DNA of 64,000 nucleotides, taken from a virus. A model generated the notes under the pieces. That model was given only the letters and a program-made list of their open reading frames with translations. It was not told the origin of the DNA and did not search any database. The first letter of the stretch is position 1, and each line of letters opens with the position of its first letter. The stretch is taken from IMG/VR virus record IMGVR_UViG_3300043409_003130, positions 1 to 64,000 of that record. One strand, given 5' to 3'. This document shows positions 4,229 through 58,593 of the stretch, in pieces. Made by a program: the position numbers and the translations under genes.

Positions 4229-6600
4229 TGGCAATAAACATTAACCTAAAAGAAATATTTTCAAACGATAGCGCTGGAGACATTTCATCTAAATTAAATT
4301 TTAATTTTAATCAGTTACTTGCACTTGGTGTAGGCCAAACTGGTTTACAGGGAGAAACTGGATCAAGCGGTTCAGCTGGACCAATTGGCCCAACTGGCTT
4401 AACTGGCGAAAACGGCCCAGTAATATGGTCATCTACTAGTGGATCAACCTCATCACTTGGAGCAAGCTCACCTGCGAATTCAGTAGTTGGAGACTATTAT
4501 ATTAGTGATGACGCTATTTATAAAAAAAATACAGCAGGTACCGATTGGGAAATTATTACAAATTTTAGTAATTTATTTAGTGCAGTTTCTGTAGCTGGAA
4601 CAGTTTCATGGCAAACTGGCATAAATAGTTCTGCTATTTCTAGACTTATTGTAAATACTAGAAATTCAAATGGCCTTGACCGAATTACTACACTTGGAAC
4701 AAGTGGAAATTATGATACAAATTTTCCAAATTGGAAAGCAGCCGATGCTACTTCTCAAAATTCACAAGCTACCCTTTTTAATTTTGATGCAAATACGGTA
4801 AAGTATTATATAGCAGGTAGCGCTGATACTAATGGATATACAGTTACGCCAACTACTAATCAAGCAGGTAGTGCATTAACCGATGAAGTTTTTCCGTATA
4901 CTTCACTACTTTCTCTATATTCATTTTTTAATAGTGCAGATGCGCCAACCGAAGCTAGTCAATATTCTGGAAATATTGGATATAGACACCAGCTTGAACT
5001 AGGTTCAGTTGACGAATTAACTGAAGGTTTGCATGGAACTGCTGGTGCAAGTTCAACATATGTAGTAAGTCCAACCTATCAAAATTTAAGAATTAGAAAA
5101 TATAGAATTGCTGATACCGGTGGAAGTTTTGGTGGAAATAGTGTTATCCTAACTGATTTTAATCTACATGCAGAGGATGGCGTAACCACACCAGCCTTAA
5201 CGTCAAAAATGAGGTGGAGAGTTAATAAAAAAACATCTGCCACTAATAGTACAGGTTCAGTAATTACCTTAACTTTAAATGCTGGAATAGCTGAGGCCAG
5301 TTCAAGTAATAGTATTAGAAACAGTTTAATTACTGAAGTTGACGGTCTTCATTTAGTATCCAGTGAGTCTGGTGGGGGAGTAGGCCCATTTAGATTAGCA
5401 ATTGGGTTTGACTCAGCTAATATTACTAATACTACGAACAAAGCTATAATTAGTTCAGATAGTACAAGTTCAGTAAGTTCAATTACATTTGCTAAATTAC
5501 CAATTACGATAACCAATTCAGCTGCTAATATTACATTGGCTACTACTGGAATTACCTCAAATTCAGTTACTACAATTTCATCAACCAGTACACCAGGTGC
5601 AGGCGATGATGGTATTACAATAAGTTCAACCGGTGGCGGTATTGGTTTATATTCTGGAACAAGCGGTCGATCCATTAAAATTGGCGGAACCAAGGCAAGT
5701 CCAGCAATTACTATTTTAAATACCAGATTAGCGAGTGCTATTCCATTTGCAACCTCTACTGGTACAGCCCCTACCTATTCAAGTACGGATGCCAATACTC
5801 TCGATGAATATCAAGAAGGTACGTTTGTGCCAACTGTTGCATATCTATTTAATGGAGCACCTTTAAATCTATTACCTGCTGAAACTGGTATATTAAGTGC
5901 AAATGAACCAACTATTAGTGGAAATTATGGAATTTATACAAAAATTGGAAAATTAATTCAATTTACAATTAAATTTTCAATAGAAAATTGGTATATTTCT
6001 GCTACTTCAGCTCTAGCTGCTCAGGCTCCGCTTAATGCATTTACCGCATATGATAATATTGATAAATTAAATGTTGGAAATATTGCAAAAACTGCAACTG
6101 ACTTTTATCACTATTATGGTCAAGAACAATATCAAATTGCAATATCTGGAATACCAAATCACTGGCCTGATCTAAACGGAACTGGTCAAAGCGGATACGG
6201 GACAGCCGATATGCACTTTAATGTTTCATTAAATCCAAGAACTCTTACCAATACCGACTCTTGCATTAGAACCTTTCCAATGGACTATTCATATGGAGCT
6301 GGAAGCACAGCGTCAACCCATCCTTTTGAAGCAATTGATCCAGCCTCTATCTATGCACAATTTAATAAACAGGGAAGCGGCGCAGGTGCTACTCCTGAAC
6401 TTAGACTATACGGCAATCGTAAAAGTTGGTCTGATTTAACATCAAATCCGTTTGCTGGTTTATTAGGTAATGTAAGTGGAATACGCTCAAATGTATCAAT
6501 ATATGATTTTTTAACCATTAAGAATCCTATTGCTAACGGTAATATAATTGATGTTGTTATAAGTGGCAGTTATTTAACTGGACACACAACTGCACCTTAA
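4228..6600 (+). CDS. Collagen-like tail fibre protein
   Basis: A 790-residue fibre-type protein. Residues 1-35 form a short N-terminal segment that may attach to the tail. Residues 36-64 are Gly-X-Y triplets (GQT-GLQ-GET-GSS-GSA-GPI-GPT). A long beta-rich Ser/Thr/Asn region follows. Near residue 526 the motif DEYQEGTFVPTV matches a module seen at the start of C-terminal domains in many phage tail fibres. It starts on the ATG overlapping the previous stop. Its stop overlaps the stop of the convergent gene on the other strand. Host-receptor or tail-surface function is inferred; no receptor can be named. Confidence 0.75.
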   Translation: MAININLKEIFSNDSAGDISSKLNFNFNQLLALGVGQTGLQGETGSSGSAGPIGPTGLTGENGPVIWSSTSGSTSSLGASSPANSVVGDYYISDDAIYKKNTAGTDWEIITNFSNLFSAVSVAGTVSWQTGINSSAISRLIVNTRNSNGLDRITTLGTSGNYDTNFPNWKAADATSQNSQATLFNFDANTVKYYIAGSADTNGYTVTPTTNQAGSALTDEVFPYTSLLSLYSFFNSADAPTEASQYSGNIGYRHQLELGSVDELTEGLHGTAGASSTYVVSPTYQNLRIRKYRIADTGGSFGGNSVILTDFNLHAEDGVTTPALTSKMRWRVNKKTSATNSTGSVITLTLNAGIAEASSSNSIRNSLITEVDGLHLVSSESGGGVGPFRLAIGFDSANITNTTNKAIISSDSTSSVSSITFAKLPITITNSAANITLATTGITSNSVTTISSTSTPGAGDDGITISSTGGGIGLYSGTSGRSIKIGGTKASPAITILNTRLASAIPFATSTGTAPTYSSTDANTLDEYQEGTFVPTVAYLFNGAPLNLLPAETGILSANEPTISGNYGIYTKIGKLIQFTIKFSIENWYISATSALAAQAPLNAFTAYDNIDKLNVGNIAKTATDFYHYYGQEQYQIAISGIPNHWPDLNGTGQSGYGTADMHFNVSLNPRTLTNTDSCIRTFPMDYSYGAGSTASTHPFEAIDPASIYAQFNKQGSGAGATPELRLYGNRKSWSDLTSNPFAGLLGNVSGIRSNVSIYDFLTIKNPIANGNIIDVVISGSYLTGHTTAP

Positions 6601-7391
6601 GCTTTTAATTTAAATGGAATGCTCTTTTGCTTTTCCAATAGTCTATGGAAATCTAAAAGAGCATTTGCATCAAAGCCGTGCAACTGATTCATAATTCGAT
6701 TTAATAAAATTGTATCTTTTGCTAAATAAATTCGGTTTATTGGATCTATATTAAGTCCGCCTCCGATTACCATTACATTTTTATCAGGATCAAAATCGTT
6801 AAGTAGTGGCATCTCCTTTAATAGTCGGTCTTTAAATTTATTCTCTTTTAAATTAGGTAATTTAATTGTTTTCATTACCGATACTGAATATCCAAGATTT
6901 CTAGTACTTTTTAAATTTAACTTAATAATTTCATAGTGATCTGGCTCAAGCGTTTTACACACTAAATAAACCCGGTCTTGATTATGAATCCACGAATTAT
7001 TAAAATAAAAATGTATTTTTTCTAAACTCAATATCTGTTTCTCTAAATATTCAGTCATTGTCTCTGCTAAAATTAACGAAGTTTCTTTGATAATTTCTTT
7101 ACCTAGACTATCAGTCTTTTGAGAAAGCTGAGAAATAACAGATAATAAATTAATATTTGTATTAACCACATTAAGGCCAGAATCATATAATTTACCATCT
7201 GATATAATTGTATTAATATTTAAATAGTGAAAAACAATTTCATAAAAATTATCAAATTTTCCAAGTTCTAGATTTTTAAGATATGCCTGTTTTGCCCCAA
7301 GCAGAAGATATGTATAATATTCAAGGTCGACTTTATATGCTTGACAGATCCATGTAGGGTCAAGTATTTGTTTAGGGTTTAGAGATTTCAT
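6597..7391 (-). CDS. Hypothetical protein, opposite strand to the fibre genes
   Basis: About 264 residues from the ATG at 7391. The frame can be extended to a TTG at 7475, but that would overlap the next plus-strand gene and its promoter word, so the ATG is preferred. The protein is mixed alpha/beta, Lys/Leu/Asn-rich, without a signal peptide or membrane segment. I see no recognisable motif; VMVIGGGLNIDP near the C-terminus is glycine-rich but not a proper nucleotide loop. It is a lone minus-strand gene inside a plus-strand structural block, with its stop overlapping the stop of its neighbour. Confidence 0.6.
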   Translation of the reverse strand: MKSLNPKQILDPTWICQAYKVDLEYYTYLLLGAKQAYLKNLELGKFDNFYEIVFHYLNINTIISDGKLYDSGLNVVNTNINLLSVISQLSQKTDSLGKEIIKETSLILAETMTEYLEKQILSLEKIHFYFNNSWIHNQDRVYLVCKTLEPDHYEIIKLNLKSTRNLGYSVSVMKTIKLPNLKENKFKDRLLKEMPLLNDFDPDKNVMVIGGGLNIDPINRIYLAKDTILLNRIMNQLHGFDANALLDFHRLLEKQKSIPFKLKA

Positions 7392-7445
7392 AAAGTAACC
7401 CAGTTTATTATTATTTATTTGAGAGGTATTTCCGGTAACACTGGG

Positions 7446-7453
7446 ATAAATAA
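7446..7453 (+). promoter_or_regulatory. T4-late-like promoter word ATAAATAA
   Basis: The sequence GATAAATAACAAAAAG sits 16 bases before the ATG at 7470. The same word with the same downstream context (ATAAATAACAAAAAG) occurs at 44877, before another structural gene. T4 late promoters are defined by TATAAATA at -10. Use by a phage late sigma factor is inferred. Confidence 0.55.
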
Positions 7454-7469
7454 CAAAAAGATGGTTTAA

Positions 7470-9539
7470 ATGCAAATTGTAGCTTATAAAATAATACCAG
7501 ACGTATCTAAAAATTCAATTAGTTTCAGTAAAAATTACAGGATTTTTTCAACCGGAGAACCATTAGAGCAGGCAATTCAAATAACTGGGTTCGTTGATGA
7601 TATTGACTTGGGTTCAGCCAATTCAGCCTACATTATTAGAAAATTAAGATATTCAACAGATAAGGCAAATTGGTCGCTATGGTATTCATTTACTGAAGAC
7701 AATTTAACTAATTTAACAGATTTAGCCTTTTCAGAATCTAATATTTTCTTTGAGGTTAAATATGAATATGACGATTCTACCTATTCGGCAATCACAACTC
7801 CATTAGCCGTAAATGAAATAAAAATCAGAGTTAAGAGTTCTAAAATACAGGCTGATTTATTTACACCAACCACATATTGTTCATCAGAACAGTGTCCAGC
7901 CCTAATTGCCGAACGTGAAGCAAGCTTTAAACCATATGAACTTAATACAGCAATCGGAATTGCTCATGAATTAAGCTTTCAAACCAATAAATTATTTGGG
8001 CATGAGGTTATCTATTTTAAAACTGAGCCAGATAGAGAAGGAACAGATTTTATATTTAAAGAATATACCTTATTTAAAACAACTGATCGTCAGTGTATTA
8101 AAATACTTGTGCCTGAAAATAAATTCCCAGATAATAAGCCTAACTTTACTGATTTTGGAGTTGATTTTGCAATGGATATACCATTTGAAATTCATATTGA
8201 TAATACCTATTTTCAAATGATTTTTGGAAAAAAGTCTCAGCCTAGAAAACGCGACTATATATTTATTCCATTAGTAAATAGAATGTACGAAATACAGGGT
8301 TCATATCTATATAGAGGATTTGGACTAGAGCCAATTTATTGGAAAATCCAACTGGTTAAATTTAATCCAAATATTGATATGTTTATGAAAGCCGCAGATC
8401 GAACGTTTTTAGATAATATTATTGTATCGACTGAGCAATTATTTGGTGCAGAGGCTGAAGTTCAGAAAAAAGATGCTCTTAATAAACAGCAATTTTCTAC
8501 TATTTCTACCAAATTTGATGAATCCAGACAAAGACTACACCCAGATATAAAAAATAAAATTTTAGATATTACTTTTAACTATTCTCCACTAATTGAATAT
8601 TATTATGATCTTAGCGGCGTATTACCAGCAATTGTTAATTATACGTTAACTGAATCTGCATCGTCCTCTGCCCAAATACTGACAACAACCTCTCCATATG
8701 AAGTTTATGCATATGAATCCAGTAATATTTTTAGTAATTGGCTATCAAATGATTTGGTTACTGGTGATGCTGCTGTAATTAGTGCAACCCAAAATGCCGT
8801 AATTAAAATGAACGGCCCAAAGGATTCATTTACTGCTTCTGGTAAATATGTAGTTGTTGAAGGTTATAAAAACCTTGGCCTAAAATCAACTGAGCGTAGA
8901 GATTTAGTAGCCACGGCTAATGTAATTCAACTTAAGCAGGCTGAGCATGCGGTTGTCTATAAAAAGCCAGCCTCAACTACTGATACTCCAAATATGACAT
9001 TTAGTGCAATTGTTAACTTTAATAGGGTTGCCCAGAATGTGATATTTTTTAGAGGATATGATGATTATACACAAAAAGGATTAGTCATCTCAGGCACAAT
9101 TGTAGATAACTCAGGCGTACCTAATCTAACCATTTATGTCAAAATAAATGAAACGCAATATTCATTTCCAGTAGGTAATATTGAATATTTAAAATGGTAT
9201 CCACTAATTGTTCCAATTTCATCTGAATTTAATCAGCTTGAGGTTAATATGTACTCGCTAAGACAGGACCCTGCAAATATTAAAAACTTTAATAAAATTC
9301 TTCCAGTGTATTCGCATTATGTAAAAACTCAGGCCTTTACTTTTAATACAACTTCATCTTGGTCAATTCCTAGTGCTAATTATTCAATTGCAAATATTAG
9401 ACTCTTTAATACAATGATCCAGACTGAAGATCATGAATTTATTGTAAGCCAGCTGTTTATTAGGGATGAATCTGTTCTGTCAATAATTGATAATGCTCGA
9501 CCTAGATTAAATATTCCATTCATTGGAATTAATAGATAA
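7470..9539 (+). CDS. Tail or baseplate structural protein
   Basis: A 689-residue protein. The N-terminal 110 residues look like a fibronectin-type or Ig-like beta domain (alternating hydrophobics, KLRYSTDKANWSLWYSF). A central part contains a CSSEQC pair of cysteines near residue 140 and a stretch around GSYLYRGFGLEPIYWKIQLV. The C-terminal third is beta-rich and resembles a lectin-like or carbohydrate-binding jelly roll, but only at the level of composition. It lies between fibre genes and begins just after a late-promoter-like word. Structural function is inferred from context; the family is not recognised. Confidence 0.6.
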   Translation: MQIVAYKIIPDVSKNSISFSKNYRIFSTGEPLEQAIQITGFVDDIDLGSANSAYIIRKLRYSTDKANWSLWYSFTEDNLTNLTDLAFSESNIFFEVKYEYDDSTYSAITTPLAVNEIKIRVKSSKIQADLFTPTTYCSSEQCPALIAEREASFKPYELNTAIGIAHELSFQTNKLFGHEVIYFKTEPDREGTDFIFKEYTLFKTTDRQCIKILVPENKFPDNKPNFTDFGVDFAMDIPFEIHIDNTYFQMIFGKKSQPRKRDYIFIPLVNRMYEIQGSYLYRGFGLEPIYWKIQLVKFNPNIDMFMKAADRTFLDNIIVSTEQLFGAEAEVQKKDALNKQQFSTISTKFDESRQRLHPDIKNKILDITFNYSPLIEYYYDLSGVLPAIVNYTLTESASSSAQILTTTSPYEVYAYESSNIFSNWLSNDLVTGDAAVISATQNAVIKMNGPKDSFTASGKYVVVEGYKNLGLKSTERRDLVATANVIQLKQAEHAVVYKKPASTTDTPNMTFSAIVNFNRVAQNVIFFRGYDDYTQKGLVISGTIVDNSGVPNLTIYVKINETQYSFPVGNIEYLKWYPLIVPISSEFNQLEVNMYSLRQDPANIKNFNKILPVYSHYVKTQAFTFNTTSSWSIPSANYSIANIRLFNTMIQTEDHEFIVSQLFIRDESVLSIIDNARPRLNIPFIGINR

Positions 9540-9551: not shown

Positions 9552-10904
9552 ATGTATACTGATATAAACAAGCGCAACCTATTTGAAAATGTAAATCTTG
9601 GATTTGAATTCGAGTTTTTTTCACCAACTAGTAGAAAAGAACTTTCTGAAAAATTAACTAAATATCTTGGTAAAAAGGTAGAATGGTCTGAATCATATCA
9701 TTCACGGCAACCAGTATCTCAAAATGTATTTAAAATTGAACCTGATTTTTCAGGAGGCTTTAAAATGAATGAGCTTATTACTGGAGTAATGCCGTATAAT
9801 GAAGCAATTCATGTAATGTTTAAGGTTTTTAATTTTATTGCAGAACATGGATTTACGAGTGAAAGAACTGGAATTCATATTAATATTTCATTAAATGAGG
9901 ATGCTTTAGAGCTAAAAAGTAAATTACAGACCTTAAATGTATTTAAATATATTTTAAATTTAGATGAGGCTAAAATATTTGAAATGTGGCCATCTGCTAA
10001 ATCTAGGACCCAACGAATTTATAAAAACTCAGTATTAAACATTTATCCAAAAACTAAATTTATTGCTGAAAAAAGTTTGCTATATTCTGGTCCAGCAAAC
10101 CCAAGTAATTTTAACCTACCGCATTCTAAATATTTTGGTTTAAATTTTACAAAGTTATCAAATAATTATCTTGAAGTTAGATATGCAGGCGGTGAAGGTT
10201 ATCAAAATAAACGAAAAGAGTCAGTTGACCTAATTAACTATATTGCAGAAAGCCTCTACTCAGTTTTACAAACAAATAATGAATATTCAGTAAACGAAAC
10301 CCGAAAAATAAATGATATATTAAAGGTTCATACTGATTTAATAAACTCAGTTAAAACATTTGAAGGATTTAAGAGATCATATCCTGACCTTGAGCTATAT
10401 ATTGACTTAAGAGATGATCCTCGAATTGTTGAAGCTAACTATGCCAATGTTAAAGAAAAAATATTTGAGTTAATTACAACTGGTAATCTCCGAAAAGGCT
10501 TAATTAATTATGATACTTCGGCCCAACGGCTTCAATTAAAGGACTCAAAACTAAAAGAGGGATTTTCAATTAATAATATTGATTTTATAAATTGTTCAAT
10601 TGAAGGAGAAATCACAAATTGTAACCTATTTGGTAGTAAAGTAAGATCATCACATATTAGAGAGTGTAGAATTATAACTGGTAATGATATACGATATTGT
10701 TATATTAAAAATTGTCAATTTGAAAGAGACGGAGTTAACCGAATTGACCTTACCTATATTAAAAGTAAACCTGAATATCCTATTTATGCTGATTTAAATG
10801 AGTGTATTATTAGATCAGGAACACTTGGCCTAAACTGTAAAGTTGATTCAAAAACAGAATTTATAAAAGCATATACACCATCCAATAATTCAGATAAGTT
10901 ATAA
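9552..10904 (+). CDS. Amidoligase-like (glutamine-synthetase-fold) enzyme with pentapeptide-like C-terminus
   Basis: A 450-residue protein. Residues 17-22 (GFEFEF), 63-74 (EPDFSGGFKMNE), 106-113 (TGIHINIS, His109) and 207-217 (LEVRYAGGEGY) follow, in order, the conserved blocks of the amidoligase family: an acidic strand, a D-x-S block followed by a conserved Glu, a G-x-H-x-x block and an E-x-R block. Members are ATP-dependent carboxylate-amine ligases that form peptide-like amide bonds. Residues about 340-420 contain imperfect repeats of short strands (for example NCSIEGEITNCNLFGS) resembling pentapeptide-repeat beta-helices. The gene sits between tail-surface genes, so a role in modifying a virion or cell-surface component is plausible but inferred. 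Substrates cannot be read from sequence. Confidence 0.6.
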   Translation: MYTDINKRNLFENVNLGFEFEFFSPTSRKELSEKLTKYLGKKVEWSESYHSRQPVSQNVFKIEPDFSGGFKMNELITGVMPYNEAIHVMFKVFNFIAEHGFTSERTGIHINISLNEDALELKSKLQTLNVFKYILNLDEAKIFEMWPSAKSRTQRIYKNSVLNIYPKTKFIAEKSLLYSGPANPSNFNLPHSKYFGLNFTKLSNNYLEVRYAGGEGYQNKRKESVDLINYIAESLYSVLQTNNEYSVNETRKINDILKVHTDLINSVKTFEGFKRSYPDLELYIDLRDDPRIVEANYANVKEKIFELITTGNLRKGLINYDTSAQRLQLKDSKLKEGFSINNIDFINCSIEGEITNCNLFGSKVRSSHIRECRIITGNDIRYCYIKNCQFERDGVNRIDLTYIKSKPEYPIYADLNECIIRSGTLGLNCKVDSKTEFIKAYTPSNNSDKL

Positions 10905-10950: not shown

Positions 10951-13900
10951 GTGGCAGTTCAAGTTAAACTTACCTCAGTTAAAAAATTAAGTTCAGTTAG
11001 TACAGCGGCAATGGTTGAACTATCTAACTTTAATTTTACACAAATTGCATCCGCCGTTAGAGAATTTTTAGTATCTATTAGTTATCAACAAGGAGTTGAT
11101 GCCGTATCCGTTGATATTAATACAATTTCAGCCGATACTTTAAATATTAGAAATGGACTTTCGGTATATGGTGCTCAATTAGAAAGTGGTAATTATCCAA
11201 AAGTTATTGAATTAGACCCAAGCGGCTCAATTATTTCTAAAAATATTATATTAGAAGATGTAGTTGATGCAAGGCGAGTTAGATTAAGAGTTTTTGGACT
11301 TTTACCAAGTGTAGGTATTCCTGGTGAACTGGTATATATTGGTACTCAACTTTCTAAATCTGAAGGAATTTACGTTTGGTTAAATTCAACCGGCTGGACC
11401 CTATTGGCTGGAGGAAATGGAGTTGCTAAGTGTATGCAAGAGGTTTCAATGACAGCCACCTCTAATGTTATTAGTGCAGATAATTCAGTTGTTTCTCCTC
11501 AAGGTTTATTTCTATTTCCAGCCCCGCTTGCTGCAACTGGTTTTTTACTATTTGTTAATGGCCATCAAATTACAGTAGGAAATTCGGACTTAACTGCCCC
11601 GGCCTATTTAAGTAAAGATGCTGGAGTCACTGCCTCTTCTTTTAATGAAGTTGATGTGACAGATCAATTATATTGGAATCCATCAGTTGCTGGATTTAAT
11701 TTAGATACTTCTGATACAATTACACTAAGGTATTTTACAGAAGATCCATATTGTTCGCAAACTGGCTATACTTGCATAACCGGAATTTCAAGCTCTTCTA
11801 CTACTACTTGGAATCAATTTACTATTCAAATAATTGGAACCCCAACTGAGCCCGGCCCAATTACTATTTGTAAAATACCTAATTTAACTACCGGCTCTGC
11901 CACTTTACCTACCGGATATTCATTAAGTAATACAATATTATCATATACAATATCTGATCCAACTGGAATCTATCCAACTGGAGCAATTATTAAATTTAAA
12001 GTACCTCAATCACTAAGTGAAGCCGAGTTTAATTTAATTAAAATATTTCATGAGGTTGATTCAGTACTCGTTGATGAAACCGTTAAGGTTGGAGATATTG
12101 TTGGAGATTTATATATTCCAAACTATGCAAGCCGATTAATTTATGCACAAGTAGATTCGTTTAGTCCATTTTATTTAATTCAAGGCCAGAGTATCACAAC
12201 TACTACAAGTTCAACAAGTACAACCACTACTCTTAACTTAACTACAACTACTACCTGTGCGCCTAATTTAATAAATTATTTAATACCTAGTGTATTAGCA
12301 CCAACGCAAATTACTTTTTATGGAACTCCGGCGGGTCCGTTCAATGTAGTATTTACCGATTCAGCCGGCGGAGTCCATGACTTAACCGGCATAACTGGCT
12401 CAATGATTAGATTAGGTTGGAATTTTAACTTAAATAATCCAAACTATTCAGGTATTCCATCTACTGTTGGAACATATATATTTACAAATTCATCAAATTG
12501 TTCTTATACAATTTCAGTACCAGTACCTGAGCTTAATACAACCACAACAACTACTCAAGCCTATGCAGGTGGAACTACCTCTACCTCTACCACAACGACA
12601 ACCACAGCTTCGTGTGCAAACTCATTAACTGCAACCCCTAATCCATTTAATAATCCAGCAACGATAACTTTTGTAGGCTCGCCGATCGGTCCATATTCAG
12701 TTATGTTTACTGAATTAGATAGTGGAATTCAATATTATTTGGGTGCAGGAATTAAAACTCCATGGGTATTTGATAGAAAAAATTACTACTTAGGCGCTAT
12801 TAATAGTTCATATGGAACCTATAAATTTATTTCGCCTATTTGTACTATTAATATACCTGTAATTAGAGCAACAACATCAACTAGTACAACCAGTACCTCA
12901 ACGAGCACTACAAGTACCTCAACGAGTACAACTAGTACTACAAGTACAACCACAGCAGCACCAACTAGTACCTCAACTACTACAAGTACAACTACTGCTG
13001 AGCCAACTACTACGAGTACTACAAGTACAACAACGGCTGAGCCAACTACTACGAGTACTACAAGTACAACAACGGCTGAGCCAACTACTACGAGTACTAC
13101 AAGTACAACAACGGCTGCTCCAACAAGTACAACCAGTACAACAACCGCTGCTCCGACTAGCACAAGTACAACCAGTACAACAACCATTGCATTCCAAACT
13201 CTAACTGGCTATGTTAATAATAATTCAACTAAATTCTGTGCAGCCAATGCAAATAGTGCATTTACAGTCTATACTGCAGCGGATTCAACGCTAGCCTCTG
13301 CCTATGCTAATAGTTCTCCAACTCGTGGTATTTTCTCAGATACTGCATTAACAACCCTAGCTGCTGCAGGTATTTACGGTAACTCAGATGGAGGAAGCGG
13401 AGTCATTTGGTATGATTGGAGTGGTGCAGCATTTACTGCGACTGGTACTTGTGCAGTCGGTTCAACTACTACTACTACTAGTACAACTGCTGCTCCAACT
13501 AGTACAAGTACTACAAGTACAACAACTATTGCATTCCAAACACTAACCGGCTATTCTAATAGTAATTCAACTAAATTCTGTGCAGGCGATGCAACAAATA
13601 CAGCGGTTACTGTCTATACAGCAACCCAAACAACATTAGCCGCTGCCTATGCTAATAGTGCTCAGATTTTCTCAGACACTACATTAACAACCTTAGCTGC
13701 TGCAGGTATTTACGGTAACTCAGATGGAGGCACTTGGTATACTTGGAATGGTACTGCATTTACCACAACTGGTACTTGCGCAGGCGGTTCAACTACTACA
13801 AGTACAACTACTGCTGATCCAACTACTACTAGTACTACAAGTACAACAACGGCTGAGCCAACTACTACGAGTACTACAAGTACAACAACGGCTGAGCCAA

Positions 13901-14397
13901 CGACTACCAGTACTACAAGTACAACAACCGCTGAGCCAACGACTACCAGTACAACAAGTACAACAACCGCTGAGCCAACGACTACCAGTACAACAAGTAC
14001 AACTACTGCTGAGCCAACGACTACCAGTACAACAAGTACAACTACTGCTGCAGCCTCACCAACTAGTACTACAACAACTACTGTAGCTCCAAATACATTT
14101 AATGTAACTGCGAGTGGTTCATCTGCTTATATAATAAATGGACAATCAAATCCAACACTAACACTATTTGAAGAACAAACTTATACATTTAATATAGCTG
14201 CAACTGGCCATCCATTTTGGATTAAACTCGTAAGCTCAACCGGTCCATACAATGAATATCCTGGTATAACTAATAACGGTACAGATAATGGATCAATATC
14301 ATTTACTGTGCCACCTGGTGCAGCTAGCGGCAGCCCTATTTATTATAATTGTGAAAATCATATTAGTATGGCAGGTACAATTAATATATCAGCGTAA
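10951..14397 (+). CDS. Modular Thr-rich fibre protein ending in a cupredoxin-like domain
   Basis: A 1148-residue protein starting at GTG. Its order is an N-terminal structural region (about 1-410), then globular modules joined by Thr/Ser-rich linkers. The modules are two related ones with paired CxxxL/PxxITFxGxPxGP patterns (12258-12535 and 12609-12868), a duplicated pair (13186-13460 and 13528-13788), and a final domain from about residue 1048. That last domain has His1087 (GHPFWIK), Cys1134, His1137 and Met1140 (CENHISM), the His/Cys-x2-His-x2-Met ligand set of type-1 copper proteins with amicyanin-like spacing. Similar HPFWIK...C..H..M domains are known at the ends of marine phage structural proteins. 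Surface-fibre function is inferred from the architecture and neighbours. Confidence 0.7.
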   Translation: MAVQVKLTSVKKLSSVSTAAMVELSNFNFTQIASAVREFLVSISYQQGVDAVSVDINTISADTLNIRNGLSVYGAQLESGNYPKVIELDPSGSIISKNIILEDVVDARRVRLRVFGLLPSVGIPGELVYIGTQLSKSEGIYVWLNSTGWTLLAGGNGVAKCMQEVSMTATSNVISADNSVVSPQGLFLFPAPLAATGFLLFVNGHQITVGNSDLTAPAYLSKDAGVTASSFNEVDVTDQLYWNPSVAGFNLDTSDTITLRYFTEDPYCSQTGYTCITGISSSSTTTWNQFTIQIIGTPTEPGPITICKIPNLTTGSATLPTGYSLSNTILSYTISDPTGIYPTGAIIKFKVPQSLSEAEFNLIKIFHEVDSVLVDETVKVGDIVGDLYIPNYASRLIYAQVDSFSPFYLIQGQSITTTTSSTSTTTTLNLTTTTTCAPNLINYLIPSVLAPTQITFYGTPAGPFNVVFTDSAGGVHDLTGITGSMIRLGWNFNLNNPNYSGIPSTVGTYIFTNSSNCSYTISVPVPELNTTTTTTQAYAGGTTSTSTTTTTTASCANSLTATPNPFNNPATITFVGSPIGPYSVMFTELDSGIQYYLGAGIKTPWVFDRKNYYLGAINSSYGTYKFISPICTINIPVIRATTSTSTTSTSTSTTSTSTSTTSTTSTTTAAPTSTSTTTSTTTAEPTTTSTTSTTTAEPTTTSTTSTTTAEPTTTSTTSTTTAAPTSTTSTTTAAPTSTSTTSTTTIAFQTLTGYVNNNSTKFCAANANSAFTVYTAADSTLASAYANSSPTRGIFSDTALTTLAAAGIYGNSDGGSGVIWYDWSGAAFTATGTCAVGSTTTTTSTTAAPTSTSTTSTTTIAFQTLTGYSNSNSTKFCAGDATNTAVTVYTATQTTLAAAYANSAQIFSDTTLTTLAAAGIYGNSDGGTWYTWNGTAFTTTGTCAGGSTTTSTTTADPTTTSTTSTTTAEPTTTSTTSTTTAEPTTTSTTSTTTAEPTTTSTTSTTTAEPTTTSTTSTTTAEPTTTSTTSTTTAAASPTSTTTTTVAPNTFNVTASGSSAYIINGQSNPTLTLFEEQTYTFNIAATGHPFWIKLVSSTGPYNEYPGITNNGTDNGSISFTVPPGAASGSPIYYNCENHISMAGTINISA
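12870..13185 (+). repeat. Thr-rich tandem repeat linker, first block
   Basis: In-frame tandem repeats encode TSTTSTTTAEPT-type units. The best-conserved unit is 39 bases (13 codons, EPTTTSTTSTTTA) and is nearly identical at the DNA level over several copies. Such a tract can expand or contract by slippage or recombination with the second block at 13788-14090. Confidence 0.8.
13186..13788 (+). repeat. Duplicated globular module inside the Thr-rich fibre gene
   Basis: Two copies of a roughly 90-residue module (13186-13460 and 13528-13788) begin IAFQTLTGY and share TKFCA, FSDT, LTTLAAAGIYGNSDGG and a closing TGTCA. They are separated by a short Thr-rich linker. The two cysteines of each copy could form a disulfide. 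DNA identity over GCTGCTGCAGGTATTTACGG and neighbouring bases shows recent duplication. Confidence 0.8.
13788..14090 (+). repeat. Thr-rich tandem repeat linker, second block
   Basis: Seven or so repeats of a 39-base unit encoding EPTTTSTTSTTTA lead into the cupredoxin-like C-terminal domain. The unit is the same as in the first block (12870-13185), so unequal recombination between the blocks could delete the duplicated module between them. Confidence 0.75.
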
Positions 14398-17982: not shown

Positions 17983-20900
17983 ATGGCCGGATATACTGAT
18001 AGTGAAAGATTAAAACTAGTATTTAAAGTTCAAGCAGCAAACGTAATAGATGCTGCCTCTAATTTTAGTTGGTATGAGGCCAAATTTGCTTTTAATCCAA
18101 ATATTGCAGCAAATAGGGTATTAACTCAGTTTGCGACAATTAAAGCTAACCCAGTTGCAAATAAAGCAGCTGCTCTTGCTTTATTAGGCACCGGAAATCC
18201 ACTAGATGGAATAGTTGCAAATGCATATACTACTGGAATAAGATTAACTCAAGTTATATCTGGTAATAATACTACCTGGGTAGTAGCCGGTACCTATGGA
18301 GATATAACAACTCAAATACTTGATTGGATTCAACCTCAAAAGATTTTACAAACAAGCGGCTCACCATCAATCGGTTGGGCTATTGAATTTTGGAATGGTG
18401 ATCCTGCCAGCGGAGGTACCCAAATTACAACAACTGCTAATGCTGGTACTGAGGTAAGTTGGGTATTTAATTATGATAATGGTCTTTTATTATTATCAGA
18501 TTCAATGGTAACCTATTTAACTTCAACATATGGAACAATTAATCCATATATTCGTGGTTTTTATTATATTGGTGATACCCTTGCGGATAGTGTAGGTACG
18601 AGTGGAACATCTGGTACATCAGGTATTACTGGGTCAAGTGGAACTAGCGGCTCTTCTGGAACCTCAGGTTTAAGTGGAAGCTCTGGAACTTCAGGTTTAA
18701 GCGGAAGCTCAGGAACAGCAGGTTCGTCTGGAACATCTGGTTCAAGCGGTACTTCCGGTATAGATGGTTCAGCTGGAACCTCAGGTTCAAGTGGAAGCTC
18801 TGGAACCTCAGGTTCAAGTGGAAGCTCTGGAACATCTGGTATAGACGGTTCTTCTGGAACTTCAGGTTCAAGCGGTAGCTCTGGTTCTTCAGGTTCAAGC
18901 GGAACTTCAGGTTCTGATGGTTCAAGTGGTAGCTCTGGTTCTTCTGGTTCAAGTGGAACCTCAGGATCAAGCGGTTCAAGTGGTAGTTCAGGTTCAAGCG
19001 GAACTTCTGGTTCTAGTGGAACGGCCGGTTCGAGTGGAACTTCTGGTATTTCAGGAATAAACGGAACGTCTGGTTCTAACGGTACTTCTGGTACAGCCGG
19101 TTCAAGTGGAACTTCTGGTTCGTCTGGAACTTCTGGGTCTAATGGTTCTAGTGGAACTTCTGGTTCTAATGGTTCAAGTGGAACAAGTGGTATAAATGGA
19201 TCAAGCGGTACTTCTGGTATTTCCGGTATAAATGGAACATCTGGTTCAAGCGGAACTTCTGGTTCATCTGGAACCTCTGGGTCTAATGGTTCAAGCGGAA
19301 CTTCCGGTACTTCTGGTTCTAGTGGAACGGCCGGTTCTAGTGGAACAAGTGGTATAAATGGTTCTTCCGGAACTTCAGGTATATCAGGAATAAATGGAGC
19401 AGCAGGTTCAAATGGAACTTCTGGTACATCAGGTTCTGACGGTTCAAGTGGTAGTTCGGGTATTTCTGGTTCAAGTGGTTCTTCCGGTTCAGATGGTTCA
19501 AGCGGTAGTTCAGGAACATCTGGTTCAAGTGGTACTTCTGGTATAAATGGTTCTTCCGGAACTTCCGGTATTTCTGGTATAAATGGAACATCAGGTTCAA
19601 GTGGAATAAGCGGTAGTTCAGGTTCAAGTGGAACAAGTGGAATTTCTGGAACTTCTGGTTCTAGTGGAATTTCTGGTTCTTCAGGTTCAAGTGGTTCTTC
19701 TGGTTCTTCAGGTTCAAGTGGTTCTTCTGGTTCAAGCGGTAGCTCAGGAACATCAGGTTCAGATGGTTCAAGCGGAACTTCTGGTACAGCTGGAACATCA
19801 GGTTCAAGTGGTACGTCTGGTATAAATGGTTCAAGCGGAACAAGTGGTATAAATGGTTCAAGCGGAACTTCTGGTATTTCAGGAATAAATGGAACATCAG
19901 GTTCAAGTGGAATAAGTGGTAGCTCAGGAACTTCCGGTTCAAGCGGTAGCTCAGGTATTTCAGGTTCAAGCGGTACTTCTGGAATTGACGGTTCATCTGG
20001 AACTTCAGGTTCAAGTGGAATAAGCGGTAGCTCTGGTTCTTCTGGTTCAAGTGGAACCTCAGGATCAAGCGGTTCAAGTGGTGAATCTGGTTCAAGCGGA
20101 ACTTCTGGTTCTTCTGGTACATCAGGTTCAAGTGGAACAAGCGGTATAAATGGTTCAAGTGGCACTTCTGGTATTTCTGGTATAAACGGTACTTCAGGTT
20201 CAAGCGGAATAAGTGGTAGCTCAGGAACATCAGGAATAAGTGGTAGCTCAGGAACTTCAGGGGTAAACGGTACCTCCGGTACATCAGGTTCAAGCGGTAT
20301 AGACGGTTCAAGTGGTACTTCAGGAACGGCTGGTTCTTCTGGTACGGCTGGTTCGAGCGGTAGTTCTGGTTCTTCCGGTTCAAGCGGTTCATCTGGTTCA
20401 AGTGGAACTTCTGGTTCTTCTGGTTCAAGTGGTAGCTCGGGTATTTCAGGTTCAAGTGGAACTTCTGGTATATCCGGTATAAATGGAACGTCTGGTTCAA
20501 GTGGAACTTCTGGTATATCGGGATCAAGTGGAACTTCTGGTATATCAGGATCAAGTGGAACTTCTGGTATTTCAGGTTCAAGCGGTAGTTCTGGTTCTTC
20601 GGGAATAGACGGTTCAAGTGGAACTTCCGGTTCAAGTGGTAGCTCTGGTACTTCAGGTTCAAGCGGTATATCCGGTTCTTCAGGTACATCCGGTACAGCT
20701 GGAACATCTGGTTCAGACGGTTCTTCTGGTACATCAGGTTCAAGTGGAACATCCGGTATAAATGGTTCTTCTGGAACATCGGGTATTTCTGGTATAAATG
20801 GAACATCAGGTTCAAGTGGTACATCCGGTTCAAGTGGTATTTCAGGTTCAAGTGGTACTTCAGGAATAAGCGGTAGCTCCGGTACATCTGGTATATCCGG

Positions 20901-23900
20901 TTCAAGCGGTAGTTCAGGTTCTGATGGTTCAAGTGGTAGCTCAGGAACTTCAGGTATATCCGGTTCTAGTGGAACTTCTGGTTCTTCAGGAATAGACGGT
21001 TCAAGTGGAACATCAGGTTCAAGCGGCAGTTCCGGAACATCAGGTTCAAGTGGTACGTCTGGTATAAACGGTTCAAGTGGAACTTCAGGTATTTCTGGAA
21101 TAAACGGTACTTCAGGTTCAAGTGGAACATCCGGAATAAGTGGTAGCTCGGGAACTTCCGGTTCAAGTGGAACTTCTGGTTTAGCTGGTTCTAGTGGAAC
21201 TTCTGGTTTAGCTGGTTCTAGTGGAACATCTGGTTCAGATGGTTCAAGTGGAACATCCGGAATAAGTGGTAGTTCAGGAACGTCCGGTTCAGATGGTTCT
21301 TCTGGAACATCAGGTTCTTCAGGTTCAAGTGGTACATCTGGTTCTTCAGGTTCAAGTGGTGCATCTGGCTCAAGTGGTAGTTCTGGAACATCCGGTATAA
21401 ATGGTTCTTCTGGAACTTCTGGTATTTCAGGAATAAATGGTACGGCCGGTTCTTCTGGTTCAAGCGGTACATCAGGTATAAATGGCTCAAGTGGAACTTC
21501 TGGATCTAGTGGTATAGGCGGTTCAAGCGGTACATCTGGTTCAAGTGGAACTTCAGGCTTTGATGGGTCATCTGGTTCAAGTGGAACCTCTGGTATATCA
21601 GGTTCAAGTGGAACATCTGGTTCAAGCGGAACCTCAGGATCAAGCGGTTCAAGTGGTGAATCTGGTTCAAGCGGAACTTCTGGTTCAAGCGGTTCTAGTG
21701 GAACTTCTGGTTCAAGCGGAACAAGTGGTATAAACGGTTCAAGCGGTACATCCGGTATTTCTGGAGTAAATGGAACTTCCGGTTCAAGTGGAACTTCAGG
21801 TAGTTCAGGCTCTAGCGGAACTTCTGGTTCAAGCGGTGAATCTGGTTCTTCCGGTTCAAGTGGAACTTCTGGATCAAGTGGAATAGACGGGTCTTCTGGT
21901 ACATCAGGTTCAAGCGGCACATCTGGTTCTTCAGGCTCAAGCGGTAGCTCAGGAACTTCTGGTACATCAGGTGCATCAGGTTCAAGTGGAACAAGTGGTA
22001 GCTCAGGTTCAAGTGGAACTTCCGGTTCTTCAGGTTCAAGTGGAACTTCGGGTATAAACGGTTCAAGCGGTACTTCAGGTATTTCTGGAATAAATGGTAC
22101 ATCAGGGTCAAGTGGAATAAGTGGTAGCTCTGGTTCAAGCGGTAGCTCAGGAACTTCAGGCTCAAACGGTACTTCAGGAACAGCCGGGTCAGATGGTTCA
22201 AGCGGAACTTCTGGTTCTAGTGGAACATCTGGTATAAACGGTTCAAGTGGAACTTCTGGTTCTTCTGGATCAAGTGGAACAGCTGGATCTTCAGGAACCT
22301 CTGGTTCTTCAGGAACTTCAGGTTCAAGTGGAACTTCTGGTTCTTCAGGTTCAAGTGGAACTTCTGGTTCTTCTGGTTCAAGCGGAACCTCTGGTATAAA
22401 TGGTTCAAGTGGAACTTCTGGTATTTCTGGAGTAAATGGAACTTCTGGTTCAAGTGGAATTTCCGGTTCTTCTGGAACATCAGGAATAAGTGGAAGCTCA
22501 GGAACTTCCGGTTCTGACGGTTCAAGCGGTAGTTCAGGGTCAAGTGGTGCTTCGGGTTCTTCTGGTTCAAGCGGCACTTCTGGTTTGGACGGTTCAAGCG
22601 GTAGTTCAGGCTCTAGTGGAACTTCTGGTTCTTCTGGTTCAAGCGGTGAATCTGGTTCTTCTGGTACATCAGGTTCAAGCGGTTCAAGCGGTTCTAGTGG
22701 AACAAGTGGTATAAATGGTTCAAGTGGAACGTCCGGTATTTCTGGTATAAATGGAACATCAGGTTCAAGTGGAATTTCCGGCTCAAGTGGAACTTCTGGT
22801 ATTTCAGGTTCAAGTGGTAGTTCAGGAACTTCTGGATCAAGCGGAACTTCTGGTATTTCAGGTTCAAGCGGAACATCTGGTTCCGATGGATCTAGTGGTA
22901 GTTCAGGTATTTCTGGTTCAAGTGGGACTTCTGGTTCTTCTGGAACTTCCGGTTCAAGTGGAACTTCTGGTTCTTCTGGTTCAAGTGGAACCTCTGGTTC
23001 TAGTGGTAGTTCTGGTTCTTCAGGTTCAAGTGGTACTTCTGGTATAAACGGTTCAAGTGGAACGTCAGGTATTTCTGGAATAAACGGTACTTCAGGATCA
23101 AGCGGAATAAGTGGTAGTTCAGGTTCAAGTGGAACATCGGGTTCAAGCGGTACATCTGGTTCAAGCGGGTCAAGCGGAACTTCTGGTTTAGCTGGATCAA
23201 GTGGAACATCTGGTTCAGATGGCTCAAGTGGAACATCAGGAATAAGTGGAAGCTCAGGAACTTCAGGTTCAGATGGTTCAAGCGGTAGTTCTGGTTCTTC
23301 AGGTTCAAGTGGAACTTCTGGTTCTTCTGGTTCAAGCGGAACCTCTGGTTCTAGTGGTAGTTCGGGAACATCTGGTATAAATGGTTCTAGTGGAACATCT
23401 GGTATTTCAGGAATAAATGGTACATCCGGTTCTTCAGGTTCAAGCGGTACATCTGGTATAAATGGTTCAAGTGGAACCTCTGGTTCTTCTGGTTCAAGTG
23501 GTGAATCTGGTTCTTCCGGTTCAAGCGGAACTTCTGGATCAAGTGGAATAGACGGGTCTTCTGGGACGTCAGGTTCAAGCGGTAGTTCTGGTTCTTCAGG
23601 TTCAAGTGGTAGCTCAGGAACTTCTGGTTCAAGTGGAATTTCAGGATCAAGCGGTAGTTCTGGTTCTTCAGGTTCAAGTGGTACCTCTGGTATAAATGGT
23701 TCTTCTGGAACATCAGGTATTTCTGGAGTAAATGGTACATCTGGTTCAAGCGGAACCTCAGGAATAAGCGGTAGCTCAGGAACTTCTGGTATATCAGGTT
23801 CAAGTGGTAGCTCAGGAACTTCTGGAACATCAGGTTCAAGTGGGACTTCAGGTTCTTCTGGAACTTCAGGTTCAAGTGGAACTTCCGGTAATGATGGTTC

Positions 23901-26900
23901 TTCCGGTTCAAGCGGAACTTCTGGTATTTCAGGTTCAAGCGGTTCAAGTGGAACTTCTGGCTTAAGCGGTAGTTCAGGAACTTCTGGTATAAATGGTTCT
24001 TCTGGAACTTCCGGTTCAAGTGGAACTTCAGGTATTTCAGGAATAAACGGAACATCAGGTTCTAGTGGAACTTCAGGTATAAATGGTTCAAGCGGAACTT
24101 CAGGTTTAAATGGTTCTTCTGGAACCTCTGGCCTAAGTGGTAGTTCAGGAACTTCAGGTTCAAGCGGTACATCCGGTTCAAGTGGTACATCTGGTATAAA
24201 TGGATCAAGTGGTACATCTGGTTCAAGTGGGACTTCGGGTTCTTCCGGTTCAAGTGGAACTTCTGGAACATCAGGTTCAAGTGGGACTTCAGGTTCAAGT
24301 GGTACATCTGGTTCTTCAGGTTCAAGCGGAACTTCTGGTTTAAATGGTTCAAGTGGAACATCTGGTATAAATGGTACTTCTGGTTCAAGCGGTACTTCTG
24401 GATCAAGTGGAACATCTGGTTCTAGTGGTAGCTCAGGAACTTCAGGTTCAAGCGGATTAAGCGGAGTAAATGGAATAGACGGTTCAAGTGGAACTTCTGG
24501 TATAAATGGTTCAAGTGGAACATCTGGTTCTTCTGGATCAAGCGGAACTTCTGGGTCTAGCGGAACTTCAGGTTCTAGTGGGTCTAGTGGAACATCTGGT
24601 TCTTCTGGATCAAGCGGAACATCTGGTTCTAGTGGTAGTTCAGGAACTTCAGGTATAAATGGTAGTTCAGGAACTTCGGGTATAAATGGTTCAAGTGGAA
24701 CTTCAGGCTCAAGTGGAACTTCGGGTTCAAGTGGTTCTAGTGGAACTTCAGGTTCAAGTGGTTCTAGTGGAACGTCTGGTTCTTCTGGAACATCTGGGTC
24801 TAGTGGAACATCTGGAACTTCTGGTTCTAGTGGTACTTCTGGATCAAGCGGAACTTCTGGTATTTCAGGAATAAATGGTACTTCAGGTTCAAGCGGTATT
24901 TCAGGTTCAAGTGGAACTTCTGGAATATCTGGAACTTCAGGTTCAAGTGGTAGTTCAGGCTCTAGTGGAACTTCTGGTATTTCAGGTTCAAGTGGAACTT
25001 CTGGTTCAAGCGGTAGTTCAGGTTCAAGCGGAACGTCTGGTTCTTCAGGTTCAAGCGGTAGTTCAGGAATATCTGGTTCTTCTGGAACTTCTGGTTCAAG
25101 TGGTTCAAGCGGTTCATCTGGTACATCAGGTTCAAGTGGTACTTCTGGTATTTCAGGAATAAATGGTACATCTGGTACATCTGGTGCAACTGGTTCAAAC
25201 GGTTCTTCTGGAACTTCAGGTTCAAGTGGTAGCTCAGGTACATCAGGTTCAAGTGGTAGTTCAGGTTCAAGCGGAACTTCTGGTTCTAGCGGTAGTTCTG
25301 GAACATCAGGTATAAATGGTTCAAGCGGTAGCTCTGGAACTTCTGGAAATTCAGGTTCAAGTGGGACTTCGGGTTCTTCAGGCTCAAGCGGTAGTTCAGG
25401 TTCTTCAGGTTCAAGTGGTAGTTCTGGAACATCAGGCGTATCAGGTTCAAGTGGAACATCTGGAATATCTGGAACTTCTGGTTCAAGTGGTAGCTCAGGT
25501 ACATCAGGTTCAAGTGGTAGTTCAGGTTCAAGTGGAACTTCTGGTTCAAGTGGAACTTCTGGTTCTTCAGGTTCAAGTGGTAGTTCTGGAACATCAGGTT
25601 TAAGCGGTTCAAGTGGTACTTCTGGTATTTCTGGAGTAAATGGAACTTCTGGTACTTCTGGTGCAAATGGTTCAAGCGGAACCTCTGGTTCAAATGGTTC
25701 AAGCGGTACTTCTGGTAATTCAGGTTCTAGCGGGTCAAGTGGAACTTCCGGTAACTCAGGTTCAAGTGGTACGTCTGGCTTAAACGGTGCAAATGGTTCA
25801 AGCGGAACTTCAGGTTCAAGCGGAACTTCTGGTTCTTCAGGCTCAAGCGGTAGTTCAGGTTCTTCAGGTTCTAGTGGTAGTTCAGGAACTTCCGGTTCTT
25901 CAGGTTCGTCAGGTTCAAGTGGAACTTCTGGTATAAATGGTTCAAGCGGAACCTCTGGTACGTCAGGTGCAACTGGGTCAAATGGCTCTAGTGGAACATC
26001 AGGTTCAAGCGGTAGCTCTGGAACATCAGGCTCTTCTGGTTCAAGTGGAACAAGCGGCAGCTCAGGTTCAAGCGGTAGTTCAGGAACATCAGGCTCAAGC
26101 GGTTCAAGTGGAACTTCTGGTATTAGTGGCAGTTCAGGTACTTCAGGTATTTCTGGAGTAAATGGAACTTCTGGTACATCAGGCGGAACTGGTTCAAACG
26201 GTTCAAGTGGAACTTCAGGTTCTTCAGGTTCTAGCGGTACGTCCGGTGCAACTGGTTCAAACGGTTTAAATGGTTCAAGTGGAACTTCAGGTTCTTCAGG
26301 TTCTAGTGGTGCAACCGGCTCAAACGGTTCTTCTGGAACTTCAGGTTCTAGTGGATCAAGCGGTTCAACTGGTTCAAATGGTTCTTCTGGAACTTCAGGT
26401 TCTAGCGGTACTTCTGTTGCTGTTTCTGGAACAAATAATACCCTTGTTAAATTTACATCTTCTTCAACTGTTGGTAATTCAACAATAACGGATGATGGAA
26501 CTAATATAAAAGCGACAACAACTTCATTAGTCGCTGGATATGACCCAACTCCATTAGCTGGAACCATACGAGACGGGGTAACATCAGTGCTAGGTGATTT
26601 AAATTCATGGAATAGTAATTTCTATCAAGGAACTGTATTATATTCAGAAACAGCAGGAGCAACAATTACCTTTGGTCAATTATGTTATAGAACACAAAAC
26701 GAAACTTGGGAATTAGCTGATGCAACAGCAATTGCATCCGCAGCAACTAACATGTTAGGCATTTGTGTTAAATCTTCAACTTCAACTAATCCAACTTCCA
26801 TACTAATTAATGGGTTTGTTGAAACTGCTACTTATGCAGCTATTTTAAAATCTGGAGAACCTTTGTATATGGCTATAACTGCAGGCAGTATGACTAAAAC

Positions 26901-33685: not shown

Positions 33686-33693
33686 TATTCCCG

Positions 33694-34174: not shown

Positions 34175-36037
34175 ATGGCTAATTTATCAACTCAAAATAA
34201 TTCGCTTAGGCTATTTACAAGCCTTAAAATAAGAATCGGTGATATCTTAGGTGAAACTATTGGTTTTTTACAGGAAACCTTTAAACAAAGTAAAACAATA
34301 TTTACTGCAGCTTCTCCATTTGGCCAATTACTAATTGTTTTTGAAAACTTAAGTCAATTAATTTTTTATTATATTGAAGATTCAATTACTGAACTTAATA
34401 TTTATGAAGCGTCTAGAGCATCTTCAATATATTCGTTAGCTAGTTTAGCTGGACACAATCCAAGCCGAGCCATTGGAGCAATTGCCCAAATTAGAATTAA
34501 ACCAAAGACTGGTATATCATTTGAAAATAATATCATAGTATTAAATGATTTGCTTAAACTTAGGTGTACAAATAATGGACTTCAATACGTGCTTGAATTA
34601 CCACAAGATGAACTTAGGCTTGACTTAACAGATTTTCAAACCCTAACTGTTTTAGGTATTAGACAGGGGGAGGTTCAGTCCCAGACCTTTACGGCAAAGG
34701 GTATTGCATTTGAGAGTTATCAAATGGGTTTAGAAAATAATTATTATGTTGATAATTTTAAAGTAAATGTTTATGTAAATGGAGAAATATGGACTAAATA
34801 CGAGTCCCTATTAGATATTCCGCGCGGTGATAAAGGTTTTATTATTAAAACTGGAATAACCAACGGTTTAGATCTGTATTTTGGAAATGGATCATTTGGT
34901 AAAATACCAACTCTTGGCTCTACTATTGTTGTTGAATATCTTAGTTCAGAAGGAGCTGGCGGCAATATCAAAATAGATGATGCTAGACAAATTAATTTTA
35001 CGTTTGACGAAACAGGTTTTTCAATAGTAGGCGATGAAATTGACTTAAATTCAGTATTAGAAATTACCGTAATAAGTCCTCCAAGCTTTGGAGTTGACCC
35101 AGAAGAGCTTGAATTAACCAGATTAATTGCACCAAAGGCATCTAAGAATTTTGCACTAATTAACGTGGATAATTATGAAGTCTTATTACACAAATTACAA
35201 ATGTTTTCAACTATTCGAGTATTTTTAGCTCCGCCTCCTGCGCCAACTTCGAATACTATACCTGCTGTAATTGCTGCTACTGGCCTGGTTGTTACTGGCC
35301 CGGTTACTGGTGTTGCTTTACCAACTACTGTATCGGGTAGTTCCCCTACTATAACTGCTGCACTTGGAGGTTCTTCACTTGCGCGTATGATTAATTTATT
35401 TTTAATACCCGATGTTTCACAGTTATTTGCAAATGGTAGTGACTATTTTAAACTAAATACCGATAAGTTTAAATTAACAAATTATCAAAAAAATCAACTT
35501 TTAAATTTTATAGAACGATCTGGAACTAAAATGATTTCTACCGATATTATAATTATTGACCCTATCATAACTAAATATGTTTTAAATATAAGTGTTATTG
35601 GATTTGAAGATGTTTCAAATGATATAATTAAATCGGATATAACTAATGCAATTGGTCAATATTTTATTAAATTAAGTAGATATGATCGAGTTCCAAAAAG
35701 TGATTTAATTAAAATTATAGAAGAGGTAAATGGAGTAGACTCAGTAAGTATCACCATATTATCTGAACTAAATGAAAAGGCTGCAATTGATAGAGCCACT
35801 CTTGTGTTAACTGGGGCGAGTTCCACAACTAACCAAATTCAATCTGAAGTATTAATTGGATTAGATGAATTTAACGATATCATTATTAATTCTAATCAAT
35901 TTCCAGTTATTAGAGGAGGCTGGAGAGATCGTGCCCAAAATTTGTATAGTGAAGTTATCTCAACTACTGAACTTAGCCCAATTAATATTGAAATAAAAAC
36001 GGTTAAAACAAAACGTAACAAAATAACATTATTATGA
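34175..36037 (+). CDS. Baseplate wedge protein, gp6 / baseplate-J-like
   Basis: A 620-residue protein. It opens with a helical segment (IGDILGETIGFLQETF...QLIFYYIEDSITELNIYEASRASSIYSLASLAGHNPSRA), continues with beta-domains (TNGLDLYFGNGSFGKIP...VVEYLSSEGAGGNI) and ends with YFIKLSRYDRVPKSDLIKIIEEVNGVDSV. The GxxxFGxxP...G..I.V.Y......GN pattern and the C-terminal V-x-x-D-I...i..v.GV are typical of T4 gp6 and the baseplate-J family, which form the ring that clamps baseplate wedges. A Pro/Ala/Val-rich insert at about 352-400 is unusual. It is the first gene after the tmRNA region and is followed directly by terminase genes. Confidence 0.8.
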   Translation: MANLSTQNNSLRLFTSLKIRIGDILGETIGFLQETFKQSKTIFTAASPFGQLLIVFENLSQLIFYYIEDSITELNIYEASRASSIYSLASLAGHNPSRAIGAIAQIRIKPKTGISFENNIIVLNDLLKLRCTNNGLQYVLELPQDELRLDLTDFQTLTVLGIRQGEVQSQTFTAKGIAFESYQMGLENNYYVDNFKVNVYVNGEIWTKYESLLDIPRGDKGFIIKTGITNGLDLYFGNGSFGKIPTLGSTIVVEYLSSEGAGGNIKIDDARQINFTFDETGFSIVGDEIDLNSVLEITVISPPSFGVDPEELELTRLIAPKASKNFALINVDNYEVLLHKLQMFSTIRVFLAPPPAPTSNTIPAVIAATGLVVTGPVTGVALPTTVSGSSPTITAALGGSSLARMINLFLIPDVSQLFANGSDYFKLNTDKFKLTNYQKNQLLNFIERSGTKMISTDIIIIDPIITKYVLNISVIGFEDVSNDIIKSDITNAIGQYFIKLSRYDRVPKSDLIKIIEEVNGVDSVSITILSELNEKAAIDRATLVLTGASSTTNQIQSEVLIGLDEFNDIIINSNQFPVIRGGWRDRAQNLYSEVISTTELSPINIEIKTVKTKRNKITLL

Positions 36038-58567: not shown

Positions 58568-58593
58568 AAAAAGCCGCATTAGCGGCTTTTTTT
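58568..58593. terminator. Bidirectional intrinsic terminator
   Basis: AAAAAGCCGC (58568-58577) and GCGGCTTTTT (58582-58591) pair with a 4-base loop. T-runs lie at both ends on the two strands, so it serves the plus gene ending at 58548 and the minus gene ending at 58579. The stop codon of the minus gene lies in the loop and stem. Confidence 0.85.

Follow-up and report, generated by a model that had tools for sequence, protein, structure and literature searches.

A predicted amide ligase with a pentapeptide-like beta-helix tail in huge phages, and its possible role at the baseplate

What does an amidoligase-like gene do in a phage, and on which partner does its product act, when the adjacent genes encode surface and fibre-type proteins? 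The question is raised by a 450-aa ORF in a stretch of viral DNA of 64,000 nucleotides (positions 1 to 64,000 of the IMG/VR virus record IMGVR_UViG_3300043409_003130), which is called the window in the following. An earlier note, made from the sequence alone, had described the product as an amidoligase-like enzyme with a beta-helix-like tail, and had suggested that it modifies a fibre or attacks a peptide on the host surface. The features of the locus are collected in Table 1.

Table 1. Features of the amidoligase locus and its surroundings, in window coordinates
Feature	Position	Strand	Basis or remark
Amidoligase-like protein, 450 aa, pentapeptide-like beta-helix at the C-terminus	9552..10904	+	intact ORF, Pfam, AlphaFold2, Foldseek
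N-terminal domain, residues 1-240, GS/gamma-GCS-like carboxylate-amine ligase fold (predicted)	9552..10271	+	AlphaFold2 secondary structure, Foldseek, Pfam (residues 13-132)
E19-F-E21, invariant acidic pair, first strand, presumed metal ligands	9606..9614	+	70/70 relatives
D65-F-S67, D and S invariant	9744..9752	+	70/70 relatives
E74, invariant, presumed metal ligand	9771..9773	+	70/70 relatives
H109 of the GIH motif	9876..9878	+	His 58/70, Gln 12/70
N198, invariant	10143..10145	+	70/70 relatives
E208-V-R210 of the LE-x-RY-x-GG motif, E and R invariant	10173..10181	+	70/70 relatives
Pentapeptide-like beta-helix, residues 316-422	10497..10817	+	AlphaFold2 strands, lag-5 periodicity, weak profile matches, Foldseek
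Upstream neighbour, 689 aa, kept in the window's clade	7470..9539	+	weak PHROG match to head-closure Hc2
Downstream neighbour, 1148 aa, Thr/Ser-rich repetitive surface-type protein, kept in the window's clade	10951..14397	+	
gp6-like baseplate wedge homologue	34175..36037	+	about 23 kb from the window amidoligase

The profile comparison with amidoligase families assigned the protein to PF12224 (Amidoligase_2), with 25.5 bits and an E value of 1.5e-5 against a curated cut-off of 22 bits, the match covering part of the profile (positions 2-136 of 245). In a close relative (L011) the match is longer, residues 13-212 corresponding to profile positions 2-225 of 245, and 18 of 31 aligned relatives match Amidoligase_2 at E<=0.01. 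The same model finds 2 of 11 large related records and misses the other nine, and a search of the window protein against NCBIfam gave no match. According to Iyer et al. (2009), as cited in PMC7824862, the family comprises glutamine-synthetase-like COOH-NH2 ligases.

For both domains, the structure prediction agrees with the earlier description. An AlphaFold2 model built from 31 sequences (pLDDT 87.9, pTM 0.85) has a ligase-like N-terminal fold followed by a beta-helix tail. The top Foldseek matches in the PDB are bifunctional glutathione synthetases (GshF), glutamine synthetases and gamma-GCS, with E values from 1.6e-5 to 1e-3, and the pentapeptide proteins QnrB1, AlbG and MfpA rank lower in the same list. 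Global TM-scores against solved structures are low (0.2-0.3), so that the match to the ligase fold is a local one. In the viral library a full-length relative ranks first (E 3.5e-52, TM 0.89), and many other matches carry an amidoligase annotation.

Conservation was counted across 70 relatives, non-redundant at 80%. The blocks GFEFEF, D-x-S, G-I-H and E-V-R that had suggested the family are all present in the window protein, at residues 17-22, 65-67, 107-109 and 208-210. G17, E19, E21, D65, S67, G69, E74, T77 and E139 never vary, and neither do K193, Y194, G196, N198, E208, R210, Y211 and G213. The expected catalytic Glu residues are thus constant (E19, E21, E74 and E208), while the expected His is present in the window at H109 and in 58 of the relatives, with Gln at this position in the other 12. 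The metal and ATP/glutamate ligands of glutamine synthetase presumably have their counterparts in the ExE pair, the acidic residues after it, the His and the ExR. One close pair has a dN of about 0.017 versus a dS of about 0.76, and in close pairs the gene is under strong purifying selection in both domains. Pfam score, predicted fold and conserved active-site-like residues all place the protein in the amidoligase family, and it is very probably an amide-ligase enzyme. The glutamine-synthetase superfamily includes hydrolase/deamidase and kinase activities, and substrate and reaction are not readable from the sequence; the same fold could therefore serve as a hydrolase or deamidase (as Dop relates to PafA) or as a guanidino-kinase-type kinase. 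Such a change of chemistry is improbable here, as the closest family and fold matches are ligases.

The C-terminal pentapeptide-like repeat is likewise borne out. Strands of the modelled tail recur every 5 residues, and the lag-5 autocorrelation of hydropathy, averaged over the alignment beforehand, is 0.49 for residues 330-395, a value reached in 0 of 10,000 shuffles. The corresponding value for residues 1-316 is -0.11, i.e. the periodicity is absent there. Profile matches of the tail are weak and lead to MfpA, McbG-like and designed beta-helix proteins; the pentapeptide Pfam models PF00805/PF13599 stay under their cut-offs, with 13.0 bits for the window protein versus 38 required for PF13599, and 26.8 bits for the best relative. 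The tail of one relative weakly resembled a type III effector model in NCBIfam, which was disregarded because the match falls on the beta-helix.

In about 60 loci the gene order is gp53-like, C5, C8, gp5-OB hub, an unassigned gene, S1-like, amidoligase, Ad2-like, gp25, gp6, C15 and C16, i.e. the gene lies within a baseplate operon. To avoid selecting on the amidoligase itself, loci were also gathered by their gp6-like protein, and the 80 loci nearest to one gp6 query formed the gp6-selected set. The amidoligase is present in all 57 loci of the set with at least 6 kb upstream, a count that speaks for one lineage, because the set consists of the nearest loci to a single query. Several Mahaphage-type loci are arranged differently, with gp5-OB-like and gp53-like genes a few genes away from the amidoligase.

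The most constant immediate neighbour is a translation gene and not a virion gene, which counts against a virion substrate. In the gp6-selected set the amidoligase comes directly after every one of the 65 S1-like genes, usually with an ORF overlap of about 8-14 bases. The S1-like protein matches ribosomal protein S1 in NCBIfam (E about 1e-20), and S1-domain matches were found in all 11 related records searched. It is known that RimK modifies S6. By analogy, the enzyme could modify the phage S1-like protein or a host ribosomal protein and redirect the ribosome to phage messages. A target in translation stays the main rival because of this neighbour, and yet we consider it unlikely: the amidoligase is retained without an adjacent S1-like gene in the window's clade and in the largest phages, and most of the other neighbours are baseplate genes.

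The placement between tail-surface genes, on which the earlier note had built, holds for the window's clade, and the same neighbour set recurs in other phages within this clade only. There, the gene lies outside the baseplate operon, between the 689-aa protein and the Thr/Ser-rich surface-type protein. Elsewhere the baseplate operon contains it or lies close by, often with the S1-like gene directly in front of it, and in sister lineages the gp6-like orthologue is found a few genes downstream. In a tree of 55 rows, rooted at the midpoint, the rows with the window's neighbour type cluster in a single group (100/98) next to the groups with the S1/baseplate arrangement, which suggests that the gene left the baseplate operon once. 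The fibre-side placement in the window is likely to be the derived state, the direction not being proven under a midpoint root. Because this placement is specific to the window's clade, the local fibre neighbours say little about virion modification, which nevertheless stays the leading idea.

The second part of the earlier proposal, by which the enzyme would attack a peptide of the host surface or cell wall from the outside, fares worse. It would suit the surface and fibre-type neighbours of the window, a placement that is probably derived. Known enzymes of this fold depend on ATP, which is not available outside the cytoplasm, and in the AlphaFold2 model the first strand of the ligase domain begins at residue 14, too early for a signal peptide to precede it. 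For an ATP-dependent enzyme of this build, such a mode of action is very unlikely.

Several other features of the window and its clade were recorded. A reverse-strand gene lies beside the amidoligase in the window's clade (6597-7475, -), and is found in another order in L059 and L069; an NCBIfam search revealed no clear family. At 33693-34075 (-) the window carries a phage tmRNA gene with the tag peptide DNNITFWSLVNQVNTPATEELLLAA. A 3011-aa protein (17983-27018, +) consists mostly of GSSGTSG-type collagen-like repeats, and a 2667-aa frame is open on the opposite strand. A PADLOC search gave no match, and a known defence module is therefore unlikely.

The window also encodes a YheC/D-type ATP-grasp ligase (58579-59706, -), the nearest NCBIfam models being the glutamate ligases MptN and RimK. 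As an obligate partner of the amidoligase it was rejected because it is patchy across 12 records, being clear in three, weaker in four and without a match in five. Its presence in the window would fit an enzyme that makes a small molecule, e.g. a gamma-glutamyl or polyglutamyl compound, possibly as a baseplate cofactor, and the nearest solved folds (GshF, glutamine synthetase and gamma-GCS) act on small molecules. The T4 baseplate reportedly contains polyglutamylated folate, which would fit the cofactor idea, but these reports were not found in the literature searched. In addition, several amidoligase-bearing records lack the ATP-grasp gene or show it only at the limit of detection, and the beta-helix arm suggests a macromolecular partner. 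We regard a small-molecule product as rather improbable.

Two profile scans of viral contigs gave at least 592 and at least 517 confirmed relatives. Six records of metagenomic phages, 462-735 kb in length, carry the amidoligase. These large phage records or their clade are discussed in PMC9723777 and PMC7162821, and the predicted hosts of the largest of these phages are Bacteroidetes. One record, LR756502 (L101 1495-2589, -), has a second amidoligase-like ORF, which contains the EFRYVGG block and has no beta-helix tail. Bacterial genomes yielded three matches, all on MAG contigs and two of them with phage synteny, and a cellular origin of the gene was rejected on these grounds. Nine moraphage genomes are reported to contain a glutamine synthetase (PMC12619734), and some of these could be amidoligases of the window type.

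Two distant homologues from cultured jumbo phages align over the ligase domain in hhalign, i.e. AUZ94978.1 of Agrobacterium phage Atu_ph07 (E 2.7e-10) and gp125 of Salicola phage SCTP-2 (E 8.1e-10). In SCTP-2, gp125 and gp124 are adjacent (L025 4921-8681); gp124 is weakly similar to the Atu_ph07 homologue (E 0.1), and the two genes are perhaps a tandem duplication. AUZ94980, AUZ94986 and AUZ94997 correspond to gp198, gp204 and gp215 of PMC6102473, and AUZ94978.1 is therefore gp196, which by gene numbering lies inside the Atu_ph07 virion-protein cluster (CDS 170-215). This location and the position in the baseplate operon are what would be expected of a virion component of the baseplate or tail, with the fold being structural or carried into the host with the particle. 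Catalytic-type residues that never vary, in a gene under purifying selection, speak for an enzyme instead, and a virion component is an explanation to which we give little weight, marginally less than to a small-molecule product.

The best explanation, to which we assign an even chance, is an ATP-dependent amide ligase that is made in the infected cell and whose most likely target is a baseplate or tail protein of the virion; that the substrate is a virion protein, taken alone, we put slightly below even. The enzyme would be a carboxylate-amine ligase of the glutamine-synthetase/gamma-glutamylcysteine-ligase fold, in which Mg-ATP and the carboxylate would be bound by the acidic residues E19/E21, D65 and E74 together with H109 and E208-x-R210. 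An acyl-phosphate would be formed and then passed to an amine, and the C-terminal beta-helix may be a docking arm that recognises the protein partner. During assembly the enzyme would create an amide or isopeptide bond on its target, either adding an amino acid or amine or cross-linking subunits. Sequence family, predicted fold, constant residues, purifying selection and the baseplate-operon context are observations, from which the catalysis, the part played by the beta-helix and the substrate are inferred. It is a more tentative idea that in many huge phages such a beta-helix-docked ligase is a core enzyme that modifies or cross-links the contractile-tail baseplate or the fibres during assembly. 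If so, maturation of the baseplate would involve an enzyme, which is not established for phage baseplates.

Most of what huge phages encode lacks annotation. An enzyme family that spans several huge-phage lineages, is tied to the baseplate operon and, in one lineage, occurs in all 57 independently chosen loci indicates a step that these phages need, either to mature the particle or to take over the host. The homologues in Atu_ph07 and SCTP-2 make the family testable. Amidoligases in phages are already known. A fusion of an amidoligase with a pentapeptide-like tail was not found in the accessible text of the literature searched, where one paper had both terms, and the core position in the baseplate operon appears to be undescribed in the open literature searched. 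A jumbo-phage overview names amidoligase only in the title of a reference (PMC7824862), and the word is absent from a paper on huge phages (PMC7162821).

For comparison with known systems, the LUZ24-like phage UFV-P2 also encodes an amidoligase of the same Pfam family (ORF23, PMC3890496). In contrast to the window gene, it lies among early genes, together with a glutamine amidotransferase, an ATP-grasp protein and GGCT, and its hhalign match to the window clade is not significant, so that the LUZ24 and window types look like different subfamilies. The homologues in the two cultured jumbo phages share the ligase domain, but are annotated as hypothetical, align over this domain only and have other neighbours. 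Glutamine synthetase, gamma-GCS and GshF are the best structural matches to the ligase domain, but at 10-14% identity and with low global TM-scores. The tail shares the 5-residue periodicity and the beta-helix with QnrB1, MfpA and AlbG, but is a short, degenerate helix fused to an enzyme, and scores below the Pfam cut-offs. With Amidoligase_2 the window protein has the ExE, DxS, E, GIH and ExR blocks, the fold and a score above the cut-off in common; it differs in its partial profile coverage, the extra LE-x-RY-x-GG block and the pentapeptide-like C-terminal beta-helix, and a minority of its relatives have Gln in place of the His.
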